From positions 1 through 27,148 of IMG/VR virus record IMGVR_UViG_3300031857_012505: DNA of 27,148 nucleotides, one strand, 5' to 3'. A program made the position numbers and the translations under genes. Of this stretch, positions 3,450 to 21,906 are shown piece after piece (position 1 is the first letter of the stretch; the number at the start of each line of letters is the position of its first letter). Below the pieces are notes generated by a model. The model saw only the letters and a list, made by a program, of their open reading frames with translations, was not told the origin of the DNA and made no database searches. Source of the stretch: a virus.

Positions 3450-5234
3450 TTATTTGAGAAACAAATAGTCTTCAAGTATTAGAAAATCTAATTCTGTATT
3501 TTCCAATACATAAAAAGCATCTTCAACAGTTGTAAGAATTGGATTACCTTTAATATTGAAAGAGGTGTTTAGAATTACAGCATCATGCCCACGATTATCA
3601 AGTTCAGTCAGAATGTCATAAAACAATTCATGTTGATCTCTGGTTACAGTTTGAAGTCTTGCAGTACCATCAACATGAGTTATCGCAGGTAGTTTTTGCC
3701 GATACTCCTCTTTCACCAATGGAGCAAAAGACATGTATGGAGATGCAAAGGCATTATCAAAGTAAATGTCTTTATCCTCCTCTCGGCAAACAGGACCGAA
3801 AGGTCGGAACCATTCCCTAAACTTAACTTTAGCATTTAGAGTATCTTTCATTTCTGGAATACTTGGATCACAAATGATACTTCGATTACCCAAAGCACGA
3901 GGTCCAACTTCAGAATAACCAATCATTGTGGCACCAATCTTCCCTTCCTTGATTAGATCTACAATTTTAGAAACATTCATATCTACTACCTTATCAATTT
4001 TACTATACTTATCATAATACTCTGGAATTTTTTCTCTGTCAAGAATATCAAATCCACAATAGACTGAAAACTTATCGTTCATAGTTTTATCTATAGAACA
4101 AAAATGTCCATAAGATAATCCATCATCCCCAGGATTAGGGGACACAAAAAGTTTTCTATTTGTCTTGTTCAAATGTTCTGCAACCTTTTGATTGAAGATT
4201 ACATTCAAAGCACATCCACCAGAAAATACTACATCAAAATCATACTTATCAAGGTATGGTTTAATTAATTTCCAACAAAGTTCTTCAAAGACGTGTTGAT
4301 TTGTCGCAGCTAAATCATAACTATGTTTTCCAGATAGACAATTAATGGTTGACTTTAAAAGTGTTGTAATATCATCCAGAGAATTTTGATTATCGGATAA
4401 AAATGCACTTATTACATCTTCATTTTCTTCTCGATTAGATAATAAAGTACTTATCATTTGTTGCCCAACCATTATAGAAACCATGGGATTTTGTGCATCT
4501 GCTGGAGTCATCATGTAATTTTGTTTGATAACATCAATCCATTCTTTTCTAACATTTCCATAAGCAACTAGACCCATCAACTTCCCAGCATTTGAATTGA
4601 GATAATCTGCAGAAACATACTTCTGATTTGAATCAAACATTTTTTCAAGATGATCTGTCTTATTCTTATCCTCAATCTCAGATATCAGTTGAAGTGGGGA
4701 CGCATATTGACCTGGAGTAAACACCATGGCATTAGATGAATTCAATGTCAATAATACATCAACTTTTTGGTCAGATATTTTAAGAATACTATAACCAATA
4801 AGAGGACATTGTTGGGGATTCTTCACTATTCCATAGTGATTATTTTCCAACCCGCCACCATCCAGAGATATTACAAGAGCATCTTTAAATCCACTTTGAT
4901 GATAGGCACCGATACAATGGGAAGTATGATGACCCATTGAAATAAATTTAGAATTGGGAAACAATCTTTTCATCAAAGAAAAGTCTTCGTCAATAACCAC
5001 ACTATAAAGAATATAAGTTGGTTCTTCTTTGAGTTGGAATTTAATATAGTCTAAAAATTTAACCCTATCCTCAAACTTAGAGTCTTGTTCATTTTCTTTT
5101 CTAAATTTTTTAAATGAGCAATGTTTTATCTTAGTAAATCTTTCTAGTTGAAAAATTCTTAATTGATTATTTTTATCTACGCACGTTACTGAACAATCAT
5201 GCCCACCATGAATGGCAAGTATTTTAGAATTCAT
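3450..5234 (-). CDS. Carbamoyltransferase, NodU/CmcH family, full length
   Basis: The 594-aa protein has both family domains. The N-terminal Kae1/TsaD-like domain shows the metal-binding HHxxH at 102-106, SLDGGG, SGGCALN at 338-344 and PNPGDDG at 366-372. The C-terminal domain (about 420-594) carries the family motif GPRALGNRS at 444-452 and FGPVCREE. Family enzymes (NodU, CmcH, TobZ) use ATP and carbamoyl phosphate to make carbamoyl-adenylate and transfer the carbamoyl group to a sugar hydroxyl. It is the last of three tandem paralogs and the only complete one. The start overlaps the previous gene by ATGA, and a terminator follows. Confidence 0.92.
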   Translation of the reverse strand: MNSKILAIHGGHDCSVTCVDKNNQLRIFQLERFTKIKHCSFKKFRKENEQDSKFEDRVKFLDYIKFQLKEEPTYILYSVVIDEDFSLMKRLFPNSKFISMGHHTSHCIGAYHQSGFKDALVISLDGGGLENNHYGIVKNPQQCPLIGYSILKISDQKVDVLLTLNSSNAMVFTPGQYASPLQLISEIEDKNKTDHLEKMFDSNQKYVSADYLNSNAGKLMGLVAYGNVRKEWIDVIKQNYMMTPADAQNPMVSIMVGQQMISTLLSNREENEDVISAFLSDNQNSLDDITTLLKSTINCLSGKHSYDLAATNQHVFEELCWKLIKPYLDKYDFDVVFSGGCALNVIFNQKVAEHLNKTNRKLFVSPNPGDDGLSYGHFCSIDKTMNDKFSVYCGFDILDREKIPEYYDKYSKIDKVVDMNVSKIVDLIKEGKIGATMIGYSEVGPRALGNRSIICDPSIPEMKDTLNAKVKFREWFRPFGPVCREEDKDIYFDNAFASPYMSFAPLVKEEYRQKLPAITHVDGTARLQTVTRDQHELFYDILTELDNRGHDAVILNTSFNIKGNPILTTVEDAFYVLENTELDFLILEDYLFLK

Positions 5235-6442
5235 AACTCAATTACCTTACCATCTTTTTTATATTTTTCATAATACTCTGGAATTTTTTCTCTGTCAAGA
5301 ATATCAAGTCCGCAGTACACTGAAAATTTGTCATCAAAGGTTTTATCTATAGAGCATACATGCCCATAAGATAATCCATCGTCACCAGGATCAGGGGATA
5401 CAAAAAGTTTTCTATTATTCTTACTCAGATATTCCATGATCTTCTGATTTGATAAAACATTTAATGCACATCCACCAGAAAATACAACGTCCAAATCACA
5501 TTCATCAATATAAGGTTGAATCAACTCCCAACAAAGTTCTTCAAAGACATATTGGTTTGTCGCGGCAAGATCATAGCTTTCCTGTCCAGAAAACCAATTT
5601 TGATCTGGACGAACACCAATAATGCTGGCAAAACTAATAAGCAAAGATTTTATATGTTTTGGAGTATGAACTTCATCAGGTCCTGCAAGATAAACCAACT
5701 TAACGGAATTAATCCACTCTTCTCTAACTTTTCCATAAGCAGCAAGACCCATTAGTTTGCCAGCACAAACCTTAGCCATGTTTCTCAATTTCCAGAAAGG
5801 AGAATCATTGAGTTTTATGTTTGAATCAGATTGCTCAAGAAGAGACTTTATAAATTCTGTAATTCTTTTATCTCCCTTATATGGGTCGATTTCGGATATG
5901 GCAGGAACTAAAGCAGTATAACTTCCCGGAGTAAAATTCATGGCACCAGGAAAATTAGTTGCTAATAAAACATCAACCTTTTTATCAAGTATCTTGACAA
6001 TACTATAACTTATTTCTACCCCTTTAGGGTTTTTAGTTATACCATAATGATTATTATCAAAACCCCCACCATCTAATGAGATAACCAATGCATCTTTAAA
6101 TTGACTTTGATGATAGGCACCGATACAGTGAGACGTGTGATGTCCCATCTCAATAAATTTAGATTCTTTAAATTTACTTTTTAAGATATCAAGATAATAT
6201 CGGTTCCCAAAGTAACTATAGAGAACATATTTTGGTTCTTCTTTGAGTTGCGATTTAATATGATCTAGAAAACTTTTTTTCTGTTCTATTCTAATGTCTG
6301 TTGTATAACTATCACATTCAAAATTATCGTGCTTTATCTTAGTAAATCTCTCAAGTTGAAAAATTCTCACTTGATTATTTTTATCTACAAAGGTAGCAGA
6401 ACAGTCATGCCCACCATGAATAGCGAAGATCTTTGAATTCAT
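5231..6442 (-). CDS. Carbamoyltransferase paralog lacking the C-terminal domain
   Basis: The 403-aa product aligns from its first residue (MNSKIFAIHGGHDCS) with the N-terminal domain of the full-length neighbour. It keeps MGHHTSHCIGAYHQS, SLDGGG, SGGCALN and SPDPGDDG. It ends at DGKVIEL, exactly where the C-terminal domain of the full protein begins (about residue 418), so it is a stand-alone Kae1-like domain. The stop overlaps the next start by 4 bases (ATGA). The conserved motifs argue against simple decay. It may need the C-terminal domain of the neighbour in trans, or act as a binding or regulatory paralog. Confidence 0.85.
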   Translation of the reverse strand: MNSKIFAIHGGHDCSATFVDKNNQVRIFQLERFTKIKHDNFECDSYTTDIRIEQKKSFLDHIKSQLKEEPKYVLYSYFGNRYYLDILKSKFKESKFIEMGHHTSHCIGAYHQSQFKDALVISLDGGGFDNNHYGITKNPKGVEISYSIVKILDKKVDVLLATNFPGAMNFTPGSYTALVPAISEIDPYKGDKRITEFIKSLLEQSDSNIKLNDSPFWKLRNMAKVCAGKLMGLAAYGKVREEWINSVKLVYLAGPDEVHTPKHIKSLLISFASIIGVRPDQNWFSGQESYDLAATNQYVFEELCWELIQPYIDECDLDVVFSGGCALNVLSNQKIMEYLSKNNRKLFVSPDPGDDGLSYGHVCSIDKTFDDKFSVYCGLDILDREKIPEYYEKYKKDGKVIEL

Positions 6443-7641
6443 AATCTAATAACTTTACCCCACTTGTGGTATTTATTATAATACTCCAATATCTTATCTC
6501 TATCTAAAATGTCAAGTCCACAATAAACAGAAAACTGATCTTTCATAGTTTTATCAACTGAACAGACATGTCCATAGGATAAACCTTCATCACTTGGTGT
6601 GGGAGATATAAAAAGATTTCGATTTGTTTTACTTAAGTATTGACTGACCTTTTGATTAAAAACAACGTTTAATGCACACCCACCCGAGAACACCACATCA
6701 AAATTATACTGATCAATATAAGGTTTAATTAAATCCCAACAAAGTTCTTCAAAGACATGCTGGTTTGTCGCAGCAAGATCATAACTTTCTTGTCCCGATA
6801 AACAATTTTGTGTCAGTGGTTTACTGATAGATTTAGATAGTCCAACAATAGATGCTTTTAGATTGAATGGTAAATGAATTTCTTTTGGAAGAAGTAGATA
6901 AATGTTTCTTATCGATTCAACCCACTCTTTTCTTATCCTCCCATAAGAAGACAATCCCATTAATTTACCAGCACATATTCTTGCCTTACTTCTCAATCTC
7001 CAAAAAGGAGAATCTTCTTGACTAGTATATTGAATTAAACTATCTTCCTTTTGTGCTTCCTCCATACACTCTGCAATTTCAGCATCAGACTTATATGGAT
7101 CAATTTCAGATATTAAAGGCACGATAGCAGTATATGTACCGGGGGTAAACTTAGGCGAATTTAAAGAGTCCGATGTCAAAAGAACATCAACTTTACCATT
7201 ATCAATTTGGAGAATACTATATGTTATTTCTATTCCATCCAGATCTTTAGATATTCCATAATGCCCATACTCTATACCGCCACCATCCAGAGATATTACA
7301 AGAGCATCTTTAAATCCACTTTGATGATAGGCACCGATACAATGGGAAGTATGATGACCCATTTTTAAAAACTTTGCATTTTTAAAATAAGTTTTTACTA
7401 TTCCCAGATACTCTTCAGAGATATAACTGTATAAAACATACTGGGGTTCTTCCTTTAATTCGGATTTAGCATGTTGTAAGAATTGATGTCTAGTCTTATC
7501 CGTCAAATCTTTATGCTCAAGAGTATCATTCTTAATCTTTGTAAACCTTTCCAATTCAAAAATCCTTAGTTGATTATTTTTATCAACTAAGGTTATTGAA
7601 CAATTATGTCCTCCATGTATGGAAAGAATTTTTGAATTCAT
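6439..7641 (-). CDS. Carbamoyltransferase paralog lacking the C-terminal domain
   Basis: The 400-aa product starts MNSKILSIHGGHNCS and contains the same N-terminal domain motifs (MGHHTSHCIGAYHQS, SLDGGG, SGGCALN). PTPSDEG replaces the usual PxPGDDG loop, the one departure from the conserved motifs. It ends KVIRL at the same domain boundary as the 403-aa paralog and overlaps it by ATGA. An 87-bp stretch (7277-7363) is identical to the full-length copy (4852-4938), while the flanks have diverged. The gene starts one base after the GT25-type gene. Confidence 0.85.
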   Translation of the reverse strand: MNSKILSIHGGHNCSITLVDKNNQLRIFELERFTKIKNDTLEHKDLTDKTRHQFLQHAKSELKEEPQYVLYSYISEEYLGIVKTYFKNAKFLKMGHHTSHCIGAYHQSGFKDALVISLDGGGIEYGHYGISKDLDGIEITYSILQIDNGKVDVLLTSDSLNSPKFTPGTYTAIVPLISEIDPYKSDAEIAECMEEAQKEDSLIQYTSQEDSPFWRLRSKARICAGKLMGLSSYGRIRKEWVESIRNIYLLLPKEIHLPFNLKASIVGLSKSISKPLTQNCLSGQESYDLAATNQHVFEELCWDLIKPYIDQYNFDVVFSGGCALNVVFNQKVSQYLSKTNRNLFISPTPSDEGLSYGHVCSVDKTMKDQFSVYCGLDILDRDKILEYYNKYHKWGKVIRL

Positions 7642-18768: not shown

Positions 18769-18835
18769 AATAGTTCTCCTCAAATGTTTGTTCTGATAGT
18801 GCTATAAGTGCGATAAGTTTTTGAGTGTCATTCAT
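18686..18835 (-). CDS. Possible 49-aa protein in the frame linking PTOX to the next gene
   Basis: This frame starts with an ATGA overlap with the PTOX stop (18835-18832) and ends with an ATGA overlap with the 73-aa gene (18689-18686). That exact fit is what coupled genes show. The product (MNDTQKLIALIALSEQTFEE then a very basic second half) is not recognised. It shares most of its DNA with the 39-aa gene in a different frame, so one of the two may be fortuitous. Confidence 0.35.
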   Translation of the reverse strand: MNDTQKLIALIALSEQTFEENYYAWYRTIFRHYPFRIIYNLFRNKRRIL

Positions 18836-19332
18836 ACCATGCTCATTGCTCTTGTAAGTTCAACATAATGGTTCATTTCATCCACAGCAATCTCACCAAT
18901 CTTGGTGTCTTCTGGATGATCCCAAAAATAGTCTAGATAAGTTTCGGTTGCATGATACTCAATACCTGCGTTCAGGTGATAAGCAGAAACGGGAGCAATA
19001 AAATAATAACCCACCAGAATCCAATAATAGATGAGAACCAAATGATAAGCGAAAAAGCGATCAATCCAGCGATCTGCTCCACCACGATGCTCCATTTCGA
19101 TGAGGTGTTCTGTTTCATTTAAGGTCTGTGCAAAGTGTTCTTTCATTAAGTAATAGTGTGATAGATCTCGGAGACCTAATGACTCTTTGAGATGTAACAC
19201 ACTGACGAAAGCAAAGTATGGTGCTCTAGCGATTGTTTCTAGAACCCAAAATCTTTGAATGGGTAAGTCACGATACAAGAAGTCAATGATTGCTATCGTG
19301 ACTGCTAAAACTGTATCGTTAAACTTTTTCAT
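18832..19332 (-). CDS. Plastoquinol terminal oxidase (PTOX)
   Basis: The 166-aa protein is a di-iron carboxylate oxidase of the AOX/PTOX family. Four helices carry the ligands: Glu32 (LETIAR), Glu73-xx-His76 (NETEH), Glu125 (EYHATETY) and Glu152-xx-His155 (DEMNH). It oxidises plastoquinol with O2, giving water, and so drains electrons before photosystem I. It is membrane-bound and monotopic. The start at 19332 overlaps the upstream 55-aa gene by ATGA. It occurs in cyanophages and Synechococcus as an electron safety valve. With plastocyanin and ferredoxin elsewhere in this window, it lets the phage tune electron flow. Confidence 0.93.
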   Translation of the reverse strand: MKKFNDTVLAVTIAIIDFLYRDLPIQRFWVLETIARAPYFAFVSVLHLKESLGLRDLSHYYLMKEHFAQTLNETEHLIEMEHRGGADRWIDRFFAYHLVLIYYWILVGYYFIAPVSAYHLNAGIEYHATETYLDYFWDHPEDTKIGEIAVDEMNHYVELTRAMSMV

Positions 19333-20368: not shown

Positions 20369-20426
20369 GTTTGTGTTGATACAAAAATATAGATTAAGAC
20401 AATCTTAAATTTGTAATATTTTTAAA

Positions 20427-20511
20427 CGGAAAGGGTAGGATTCGAACCAACGGAAGCTTTCACTTCGGCAGTTTTCAAGACTGCTGCCTTAAACCACTCG
20501 GCCACCTTTCC
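20427..20511 (-). tRNA. tRNA-Ser (anticodon TGA)
   Basis: 85 bases, class II tRNA: acceptor GGAAAGG/CCTTTCC, anticodon arm GCAGT-CTTGAAA-ACTGC, a long variable arm, T-arm GTTGG-TTCGAAT-CCTAC, discriminator G. CCA is not encoded. Confidence 0.96.
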
Positions 20512-20524
20512 AGGTTATGTTATA

Positions 20525-20553
20525 ATTATAAGTATAAATTCAAAATAAGTCAA
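20525..20553 (-). promoter_or_regulatory. Promoter of tRNA-Ser (TTGACT-N17-TATAAT)
   Basis: TATAAT (20530-20525) and TTGACT (20553-20548) have exactly 17 bp between them. The -35 directly abuts the GTG start of the divergent plus-strand gene. The same AT-rich stretch read on the plus strand gives TATAAT (20521) and the late-like TATAAATT (20533), so the region may be bidirectional. Confidence 0.75.
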
Positions 20554-21144
20554 GTGCAAATATTAGAATTTGAAATCTTACTTATAGACCTTGGATATAA
20601 GGATAAATCAAAAATAGAAATCGATCATCCAAAGTTCACAAATCAGATGAACTTCACTTGTGATAGTGGTTCTATGGCATTTTATTCTTGGCTAAAACCA
20701 TATTACAATAAAAAAAGTTACTTATATGTAGAATTTTTAGAATATTATAGTGAAGTAGATGTCAAACAAAGAATAGAAAGACTTGCTAAGAAGATAGATT
20801 TTGACACAAAAACAAGAATTGGAGATATTGGTTGGGATGTTATGTATACTAAATCTCCAGATTTATTCACAACACAAGAAAGAACCAAAATGTATTTGGA
20901 ATTTCTTTCTAAAGGAAGTAAATTTTTAGATGGAAATTTTTACGGTTTAAATCCAGAACCAGGAGATATGCTAGCAGCAAGACCACAAGGACCAAAAATT
21001 GATCAAGGATTTACAAATCATTCACTTAAACTAGGAGCGAGGCAAAGAGCACTTATCGCACAACGATATGGATTTGGTCCTCTATTTGAAGATGGTCTTC
21101 AATATGCTAGATATAATAATGATTTAGTTCTTGAACCAGTATGA
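20554..21144 (+). CDS. Unknown protein A of a plus-strand paralogous pair (196 aa)
   Basis: I do not recognise this family. It is one of only two plus-strand genes in the window. The start is GTG 20554 with no clear Shine-Dalgarno; the first internal ATG is at codon 32. Motifs shared with the next gene are RIGDIGW (88-94), GDMLA (137-141) and a C-terminal block RYGF...E.GLQYARYN...LVLEP (171-195). The middle is charged and helical (KQRIERLAKKIDFD), with no signal peptide or membrane helix. It overlaps the next gene by ATGA. A divergent promoter for tRNA-Ser lies immediately upstream. Confidence 0.72.
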   Translation: MQILEFEILLIDLGYKDKSKIEIDHPKFTNQMNFTCDSGSMAFYSWLKPYYNKKSYLYVEFLEYYSEVDVKQRIERLAKKIDFDTKTRIGDIGWDVMYTKSPDLFTTQERTKMYLEFLSKGSKFLDGNFYGLNPEPGDMLAARPQGPKIDQGFTNHSLKLGARQRALIAQRYGFGPLFEDGLQYARYNNDLVLEPV

Positions 21145-21662
21145 AGCGTTTTACATCAATACTTTTTAATGTGCATGGTATAGATGTATATGGATACATA
21201 GATCTTTTTGATGATAAAGATCAATTTTTATCCATGGCATGTAAAGATGCAGATCCGGAAAAATTAGAATATTTTAAAAAAAAGATTCGTTATGACTCTG
21301 GTGGAAGGATAGGAGAAGTTGGATGGGGTCTTTCATTAACTCCAAATTCGGTAGCAAGAAAACTACGTCAACTAACTTTACAACAACGTACTGATGTAGT
21401 TTCCACCGCATTAAAGCATAATGTAATAAAAAAATATTTTTATACCGACTTTATTGATGGGCATGATTTATTCAGAATCAAAGGAGATATTCTATTCAGT
21501 CACCCATGTGGATTTGCAGAAACTAAAATAGCAGAACTTGGTAATAAAGATTTATCTGCAAGAATTGGTAAGTTATGTACACGATATGGTTTTAGTGAAC
21601 TAGATGAGTATGGATACCAATTCGCAATCTATAATGACCAGTTAAAGTTAGAACCTATCTAA
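21141..21662 (+). CDS. Unknown protein B of a plus-strand paralogous pair (173 aa)
   Basis: A paralog of the preceding gene: RIGEVGW (56-62), LTLQQRTDVVSTAL against FTTQERTKMYLEFL, GDILF, and TRYGF..LDEYGYQFAIYNDQLKLEPI at the C-terminus. The N-terminus (MKRFTSILFNVHGIDVYGYID) differs and looks like two beta strands. No catalytic motif was recognised. The gene converges on the minus-strand zinc-binding gene, and the two reading frames overlap by 8 bases at their stops with no terminator between. Confidence 0.78.
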   Translation: MKRFTSILFNVHGIDVYGYIDLFDDKDQFLSMACKDADPEKLEYFKKKIRYDSGGRIGEVGWGLSLTPNSVARKLRQLTLQQRTDVVSTALKHNVIKKYFYTDFIDGHDLFRIKGDILFSHPCGFAETKIAELGNKDLSARIGKLCTRYGFSELDEYGYQFAIYNDQLKLEPI

Positions 21663-21906
21663 CTTCAAAATCTAACTTTCTTACCTTACGATTTCTACGT
21701 GCTTCTTGATAGGCAAGATCTTCTTGCGATAATATACTTGCCCTTTTATTTTGCTTATCAGAATCAATCATAACTACATCTGCCAAATCTACAGCAGTGA
21801 TTAAATCTCCCTTTACTGTGGTCATATTTGCACAACCACAAGACTTTGTTTTAACTGGGTGACTGATCAATTCAGTCCCGCAGACTTTGCATCTTACGCT
21901 TACCAT
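21655..21906 (-). CDS. Small zinc-binding-like protein, 83 aa
   Basis: The N-terminus has a four-cysteine pattern: Cys6-xx-Cys9 (RCKVCG) and Cys23-x-Cys25 (KSCGCANM), a probable zinc ribbon. The rest is a soluble segment with a basic C-terminus (YQEARRNRKVRKLDFEVR). It may bind nucleic acid or be an assembly factor. It lies 15 bases downstream of the Dps-like gene and is probably cotranscribed with it. Confidence 0.78.
   Translation of the reverse strand: MVSVRCKVCGTELISHPVKTKSCGCANMTTVKGDLITAVDLADVVMIDSDKQNKRASILSQEDLAYQEARRNRKVRKLDFEVR

Follow-up and report, generated by a model that had tools for sequence, protein, structure and literature searches.

Two small, overlapping genes, here called A and B, lie on the plus strand of a T4-like freshwater cyanophage sequence between a tRNA gene and a convergent reading frame, which raises the question of what they are, how they came to be placed there and what their products might do during infection. 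We addressed this question in a 27,148-nucleotide stretch of viral DNA (IMG/VR virus record IMGVR_UViG_3300031857_012505, positions 1 to 27,148), the whole of which is referred to as the window (Table 1).

Table 1. Coordinates of the A/B locus and of other features in the window.
Feature	Position	Strand	Description	Basis
Three tandem paralogous carbamoyltransferase-like genes	3450-7641	-	594, 403 and 400 aa, within a glycan-synthesis cluster	
Plastoquinol terminal oxidase-like gene	18832-19332	-	166 aa	
tRNA-Ser(TGA)	20426..20512	-	left border of the insertion	ARAGORN
Extended -10 promoter element TGTTATAAT of A	20518..20526	+	conserved in relatives	
Candidate sigma-70-type promoter for tRNA-Ser, TTGACT-17-TATAAT	20553-20525	-	11/12 matches	
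Gene A	20554..21144	+	196 aa, GTG start; main copy of the family	ORF
Gene B	21141..21662	+	173 aa, divergent second copy, optional in relatives	ORF
Zinc-ribbon gene	21655..21906	-	83 aa, C-x2-C...CGC; convergent, right border	alignment of 18

Two related and constrained genes

The first-pass annotation had described A and B as a pair of paralogous genes coupled by an ATGA, and both open reading frames, with that overlap, were recovered. BLASTP aligned A with B at 54 bits (E 3e-14, 32% identity over 141 columns), and the two proteins share both of the motif blocks named earlier, R-I-G-[DE]-[IV]-G-W and a C-terminal RYGF...E.G.Q[YF]A.YN..L.LEP, bearing out their paralogy. Three related loci (L044, L045 and L048) back the start of A, each having an ATG at the corresponding position or close to it. 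Because every other plus-strand open reading frame of at least 100 aa in the window is nested within a minus-strand gene or a tRNA, the description of A and B as the only plus-strand genes holds at that length, and smaller genes could exist.

NG86 estimates of dN/dS were 0.03-0.14 in nearly all pairs (0.04-0.09 for gene A) and up to 0.22 among the divergent second copies, and positive selection, sought at whole-gene level through these ratios, was not seen. The family is under strong purifying selection, without an arms-race signature at whole-gene level. Low dN/dS in nearly all pairs and recurrence across the IMG/VR loci described below place A and B beyond chance, and both are real, constrained genes. 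Conserved positions in the family are K53, S55, R88, G93, D138, P144, R165, G173-F174, Q183 and Y187.

Elsewhere in the window, the two shorter carbamoyltransferase-like copies apparently lack the C-terminal part, and the protein encoded at 18832-19332 reads like a plastoquinol terminal oxidase, whose gene is among the metabolic genes known from cyanophages.

Distribution and copy number of the family

Among 50,697 phage records, the sole full-length homologue of A was found in S-SRM01, a Synechococcus phage of the Kyanoviridae from a freshwater reservoir, where it occurs as a single copy in the same location (QPX48253, 48% identity to A). A is thus not a core gene of T4-like cyanophages, although the neighbouring zinc-ribbon gene is present in 90 phage records. 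A profile built from seven sequences recovered 77 IMG/VR loci carrying the family. A scan of 84,980 bacterial and archaeal species, each represented by one genome, detected no member, although it was pattern-based and so may let distant homologues escape; the plasmids searched yielded none either. Consistent with the earlier view that the pair belongs to no recognised family, searches of Pfam, PHROGs, NCBIfam, PADLOC and the PDB returned no family match for A or B; scattered weak hits to PD-Lambda-5_B (E 0.03), SbcD_C (E 0.024), an antiholin (E 0.42) and an RNase P protein (E 0.034) were judged to be chance. Across these searches, the family is phage-restricted. Plus-strand clusters in other cyanophages (DSL-LC02, S-PRM1 and WH25-B) were also compared and proved unrelated to A and B.

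Of 69 loci in which the cassette ends at the zinc-ribbon gene, 47 had one copy and 22 had two, a count that includes near-duplicates. B is therefore optional; the heterodimer or two specificities suggested in the first-pass annotation may exist where both copies occur, but A does not need B. In a phylogenetic tree the main copies formed one clade and the second copies fell into three groups on long branches, namely B of the window, a set from L034, L038 and L059, and another from L042, L078 and L079; either separate duplications or a single old duplication followed by losses could account for these groups. This copy number bears directly on the toxin-antitoxin-like function on which the first-pass annotation had speculated. 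Two small overlapping genes would suit such a system, and GNAT toxins such as TacT exist, but known GNAT toxins (TacAT, AtaRT) form an obligate pair with a DNA-binding antitoxin, whereas A and B belong to one family and A usually fills the cassette alone. With B optional, a toxin-antitoxin pair is barely credible.

Insertion between tRNA-Ser and the zinc-ribbon gene

The pair lies, as had been claimed, between tRNA-Ser and a convergent gene, with the 3' end of the zinc-ribbon gene overlapping that of B by 8 bases. In DSL-LC03 the zinc-ribbon gene abuts tRNA-Ser directly, representing an empty site, and the two are also neighbours in S-WAM2, S-RSM4, S-SM2 and SynMITS9220M01. Presence or absence was scored at 80 IMG/VR zinc-ribbon loci: tRNA-Ser lay at most 300 bases away without A in 54, the A family occupied the joint in 9, another arrangement was present in 15, and the contig ended too early in 2. 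A and B therefore sit exactly in a joint that is closed in most relatives, as a reversed insertion restricted to some lineages. The family also occupies a second locus, in the clade L081-L084, where the gene, once more in reversed orientation, has hli and a gp46-like recombination endonuclease gene as neighbours; no tRNA was found in these contigs. The empty site in most related phages and the second locus together support the earlier proposal of a laterally acquired cassette. A phage moron is a single gene that carries its own promoter and interrupts two genes which are adjacent elsewhere, and the A/B pair combines insertion between adjacent genes, its own predicted promoter and another genomic position. 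We consider it very probably a moron.

The zinc-ribbon gene itself has four conserved Cys and a basic QEARRxRKVRxLDFEVR tail; annotations often omit it or truncate its start, and the records seen name no function for it. Other cargo occurs at the tRNA-Ser flank in relatives (L017:7523-7909, L034:7414-7887, L059:7404-7910 and L063:2035-2880), including nuclease-like, HNH-like and oxygenase-like genes, marking this flank as a cargo hot spot.

Overlapping divergent promoters

An extended -10 element (TGnTATAAT) lies ahead of A in 23 of 30 relatives, whereas shuffling predicts 0.16; the observed count is inflated by the shared ancestry of the relatives. On the opposite strand, the candidate promoter for tRNA-Ser was the best site of the promoter scan, overlaps the promoter of A and abuts its GTG start. 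As the scan found 11 sites in total against 9.4 by chance, the case for this promoter rests on its position and on a conserved GTCAAG. That hexamer, which had been considered as a start-site feature ahead of A, is better explained as the -35 box of the tRNA-Ser promoter. The divergent promoter described in the first-pass annotation thus looks real on both strands, and the minus-strand site could drive tRNA-Ser. Because the two promoters overlap, their use may be mutually exclusive; and since tRNA-Ser directly follows the zinc-ribbon gene at the empty site, the insertion seemingly brought a promoter for the tRNA that it severed.

This arrangement, in which A adjoins tRNA-Ser and shares promoter sequence with it, would fit RNA- or tRNA-binding proteins that influence tRNA-Ser or translation in the infected cell, as would the RNase E DNase-I-like subdomain and the tRNA-acting GNATs among the structural matches presented below. 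However, in L081-L084 the gene stands beside gp46 in contigs in which no tRNA was found, and neither protein is basic (pI 6.2 and 7.7), which makes RNA or tRNA binding very unlikely.

Predicted structure and resemblance to GNAT proteins

AlphaFold2, supplied with 37-row alignments that contained no row from a named phage record, produced models of A (pLDDT 83.9, pTM 0.80) and B (pLDDT 79.3, pTM 0.76), which share one sequence set and are therefore not independent. Fold searches with these models gave a divided result. In Foldseek searches of the PDB, every match to the two models had an E value of at least 0.28, while GNAT or histone-acetyltransferase folds made up approximately 44 of 50 VIA-align rows for A and approximately 38 of 50 for B. 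The top row for A was AcrVA5 (Z 6.8, rmsd 3.2, 90 aligned), with Elp3, SpeG and AAC(6') also represented; the top row for B was TacT (Z 6.1, rmsd 3.5, 111 aligned), accompanied by AAC(6') and FeeM, with RNase E rows close behind. As VIA-align Z values below 8 may reflect a mere common arrangement and the best here is 6.8, the argument lies in the enrichment of GNAT rows rather than in any single row, and is suggestive only. We consider a GNAT-like fold for A and B somewhat probable on the basis of these models. The claim that the pair matches no known family therefore holds by sequence; the models, however, suggest a GNAT-like fold.

Canonical GNATs bind the pyrophosphate of acyl-CoA through a P-loop, Gln/Arg-x-x-Gly-x-Gly/Ala, that follows strand 4 and leads into helix 3, although atypical versions of this loop occur in some true GNATs (PMC4964394). 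An acetyl-CoA P-loop was absent from the expected place in each of 38 family members, 36 of the 38 lack any glycine in the corresponding strand-helix loop, and the pattern matched only at the C-terminal QRYGFG. With the P-loop missing in all 38 members, canonical acetyltransferase activity is unlikely, though the existence of atypical P-loops tempers this conclusion. A and B might instead have acyl- or acetyltransferase activity through a non-canonical donor site and modify a host protein or tRNA, in the way of Rac, AcrVA5 or TacT. The nearest structural rows, AcrVA5 for A and TacT with acetyl-glycyl-tRNA for B, agree with an enzymatic role, and the conserved K53, R88, D138, R165, Q183 and Y187 hint at a ligand-binding or catalytic site. 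Against it stand the largely glycine-free loop and the lack of any GNAT profile match for A or B, even at E 10, in the Pfam, NCBIfam and PHROGs scans, and we consider an active enzyme unlikely.

Possible remote resemblance to S-SRM01 proteins with capsid-targeting-like N-termini

Among the predicted viral structures of BFVD, the A model was closest to an S-SRM01 protein of 276 aa (E 3.9e-5, prob 1.00, TM 0.62), which was assigned by length to QPX48132 (record 82315-83145), the only protein of that length. QPX48132 and QPX48133 are tandem paralogues (record 82315-84158, L103:32315-34158) with a basic linker and a shared C-terminal domain that may be related to the A/B family, and have relatives in 11 IMG/VR contigs (L107-L117). 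Their N-termini (MKTFQEFQESA) resemble the T4 capsid-targeting sequence. Internal head proteins of the T4 type carry an N-terminal capsid-targeting sequence of approximately 10 residues (PMC9026906; see also PMC3012670).

These observations raise the possibility that A and B branched off from capsid-targeted internal head proteins and represent a form that is produced within the cell or reaches the capsid in a different way. Besides the BFVD match, a profile alignment against approximately 298 S-SRM01 open reading frames and as many reversed decoys ranked QPX48133 highest after the family member itself (26.5, next 22.9), and the family shares a P-G-D...P...G..[KQ]R...FG motif with the tandem proteins. 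QPX48132, however, ranked 206 in the same comparison and its accession is tied to the matched gene by length alone; hhalign gave a probability of 8-17% over a shared stretch of approximately 40 columns between the family and the tandem proteins; and no capsid-targeting sequence was found in the N-termini of the A family, including A and B. We treat the relationship to QPX48132 and QPX48133 as a faint lead and regard an origin of A and B from head proteins as rather unlikely. A broader scenario, in which the same phages would employ a GNAT-derived domain without acetyl-CoA binding both in tandem proteins injected along with the DNA (QPX48132/QPX48133) and in an early-expressed mobile cassette (A/B), in each case directed at the host, appears decidedly improbable.

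Proposed function and significance

The interpretation that we favour, tentatively and at less than even confidence, is that A and B are early, mobile, non-canonical GNAT-like proteins with a host-directed binding role. Host RNA polymerase would transcribe A early from its extended -10 promoter, in competition with transcription of tRNA-Ser from the overlapping divergent promoter, and B would be co-expressed through translational coupling. The proteins would then bind a host factor, rather than carry out acetyl-CoA-dependent acetylation, in the service of host take-over or counter-defence, with B perhaps widening or modifying the range of targets. Phage GNAT proteins that act on the host have precedents in Rac (PMC7552054) and AcrVA5 (PMC9114340). 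An anti-defence role for A and B, on which the first-pass annotation had speculated, is possible.

The locus illustrates cleanly how a cargo gene enters a tRNA cluster of T4-like cyanophages, with unoccupied sites, another genomic location and several diverged extra copies all represented. It also defines a protein family that is open to testing and absent from all libraries searched. Should the family act on host defence or take-over, it would provide a handle on the conflict between freshwater Synechococcus and its phages, about which, to our knowledge, little is known.

Comparison with known systems

A and B resemble the GNAT superfamily in predicted strand and helix order and in most of their best structural rows, but differ in lacking a sequence-profile match and the P-loop and in Z values below 8. 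Similarity to the anti-CRISPR acetyltransferase AcrVA5 consists of the top structural row for A over 90 residues; AcrVA5, a chain of 96 residues, acts on Cas12a and has 9% identity and no sequence relation to A. Rac of phiKMV-like phages is, like the proposed A and B, a phage-encoded GNAT-like protein acting on the host, but its effect needs a recognisable acetyl-CoA pocket, which the A/B family lacks (PMC7552054). With the T4 internal head proteins (IPI-III, Alt) the connection is indirect, through the S-SRM01 tandem pair, whose N-termini are capsid-targeting-like and which remotely resembles the A/B family, whereas A and B lack such an N-terminus. Compared with phage morons, the A/B cassette is unlike in sometimes holding two diverged copies and in having a promoter that overlaps that of tRNA-Ser, but it shares with them a reversed orientation, its own promoter, an empty site in relatives and occurrence at two genomic positions.
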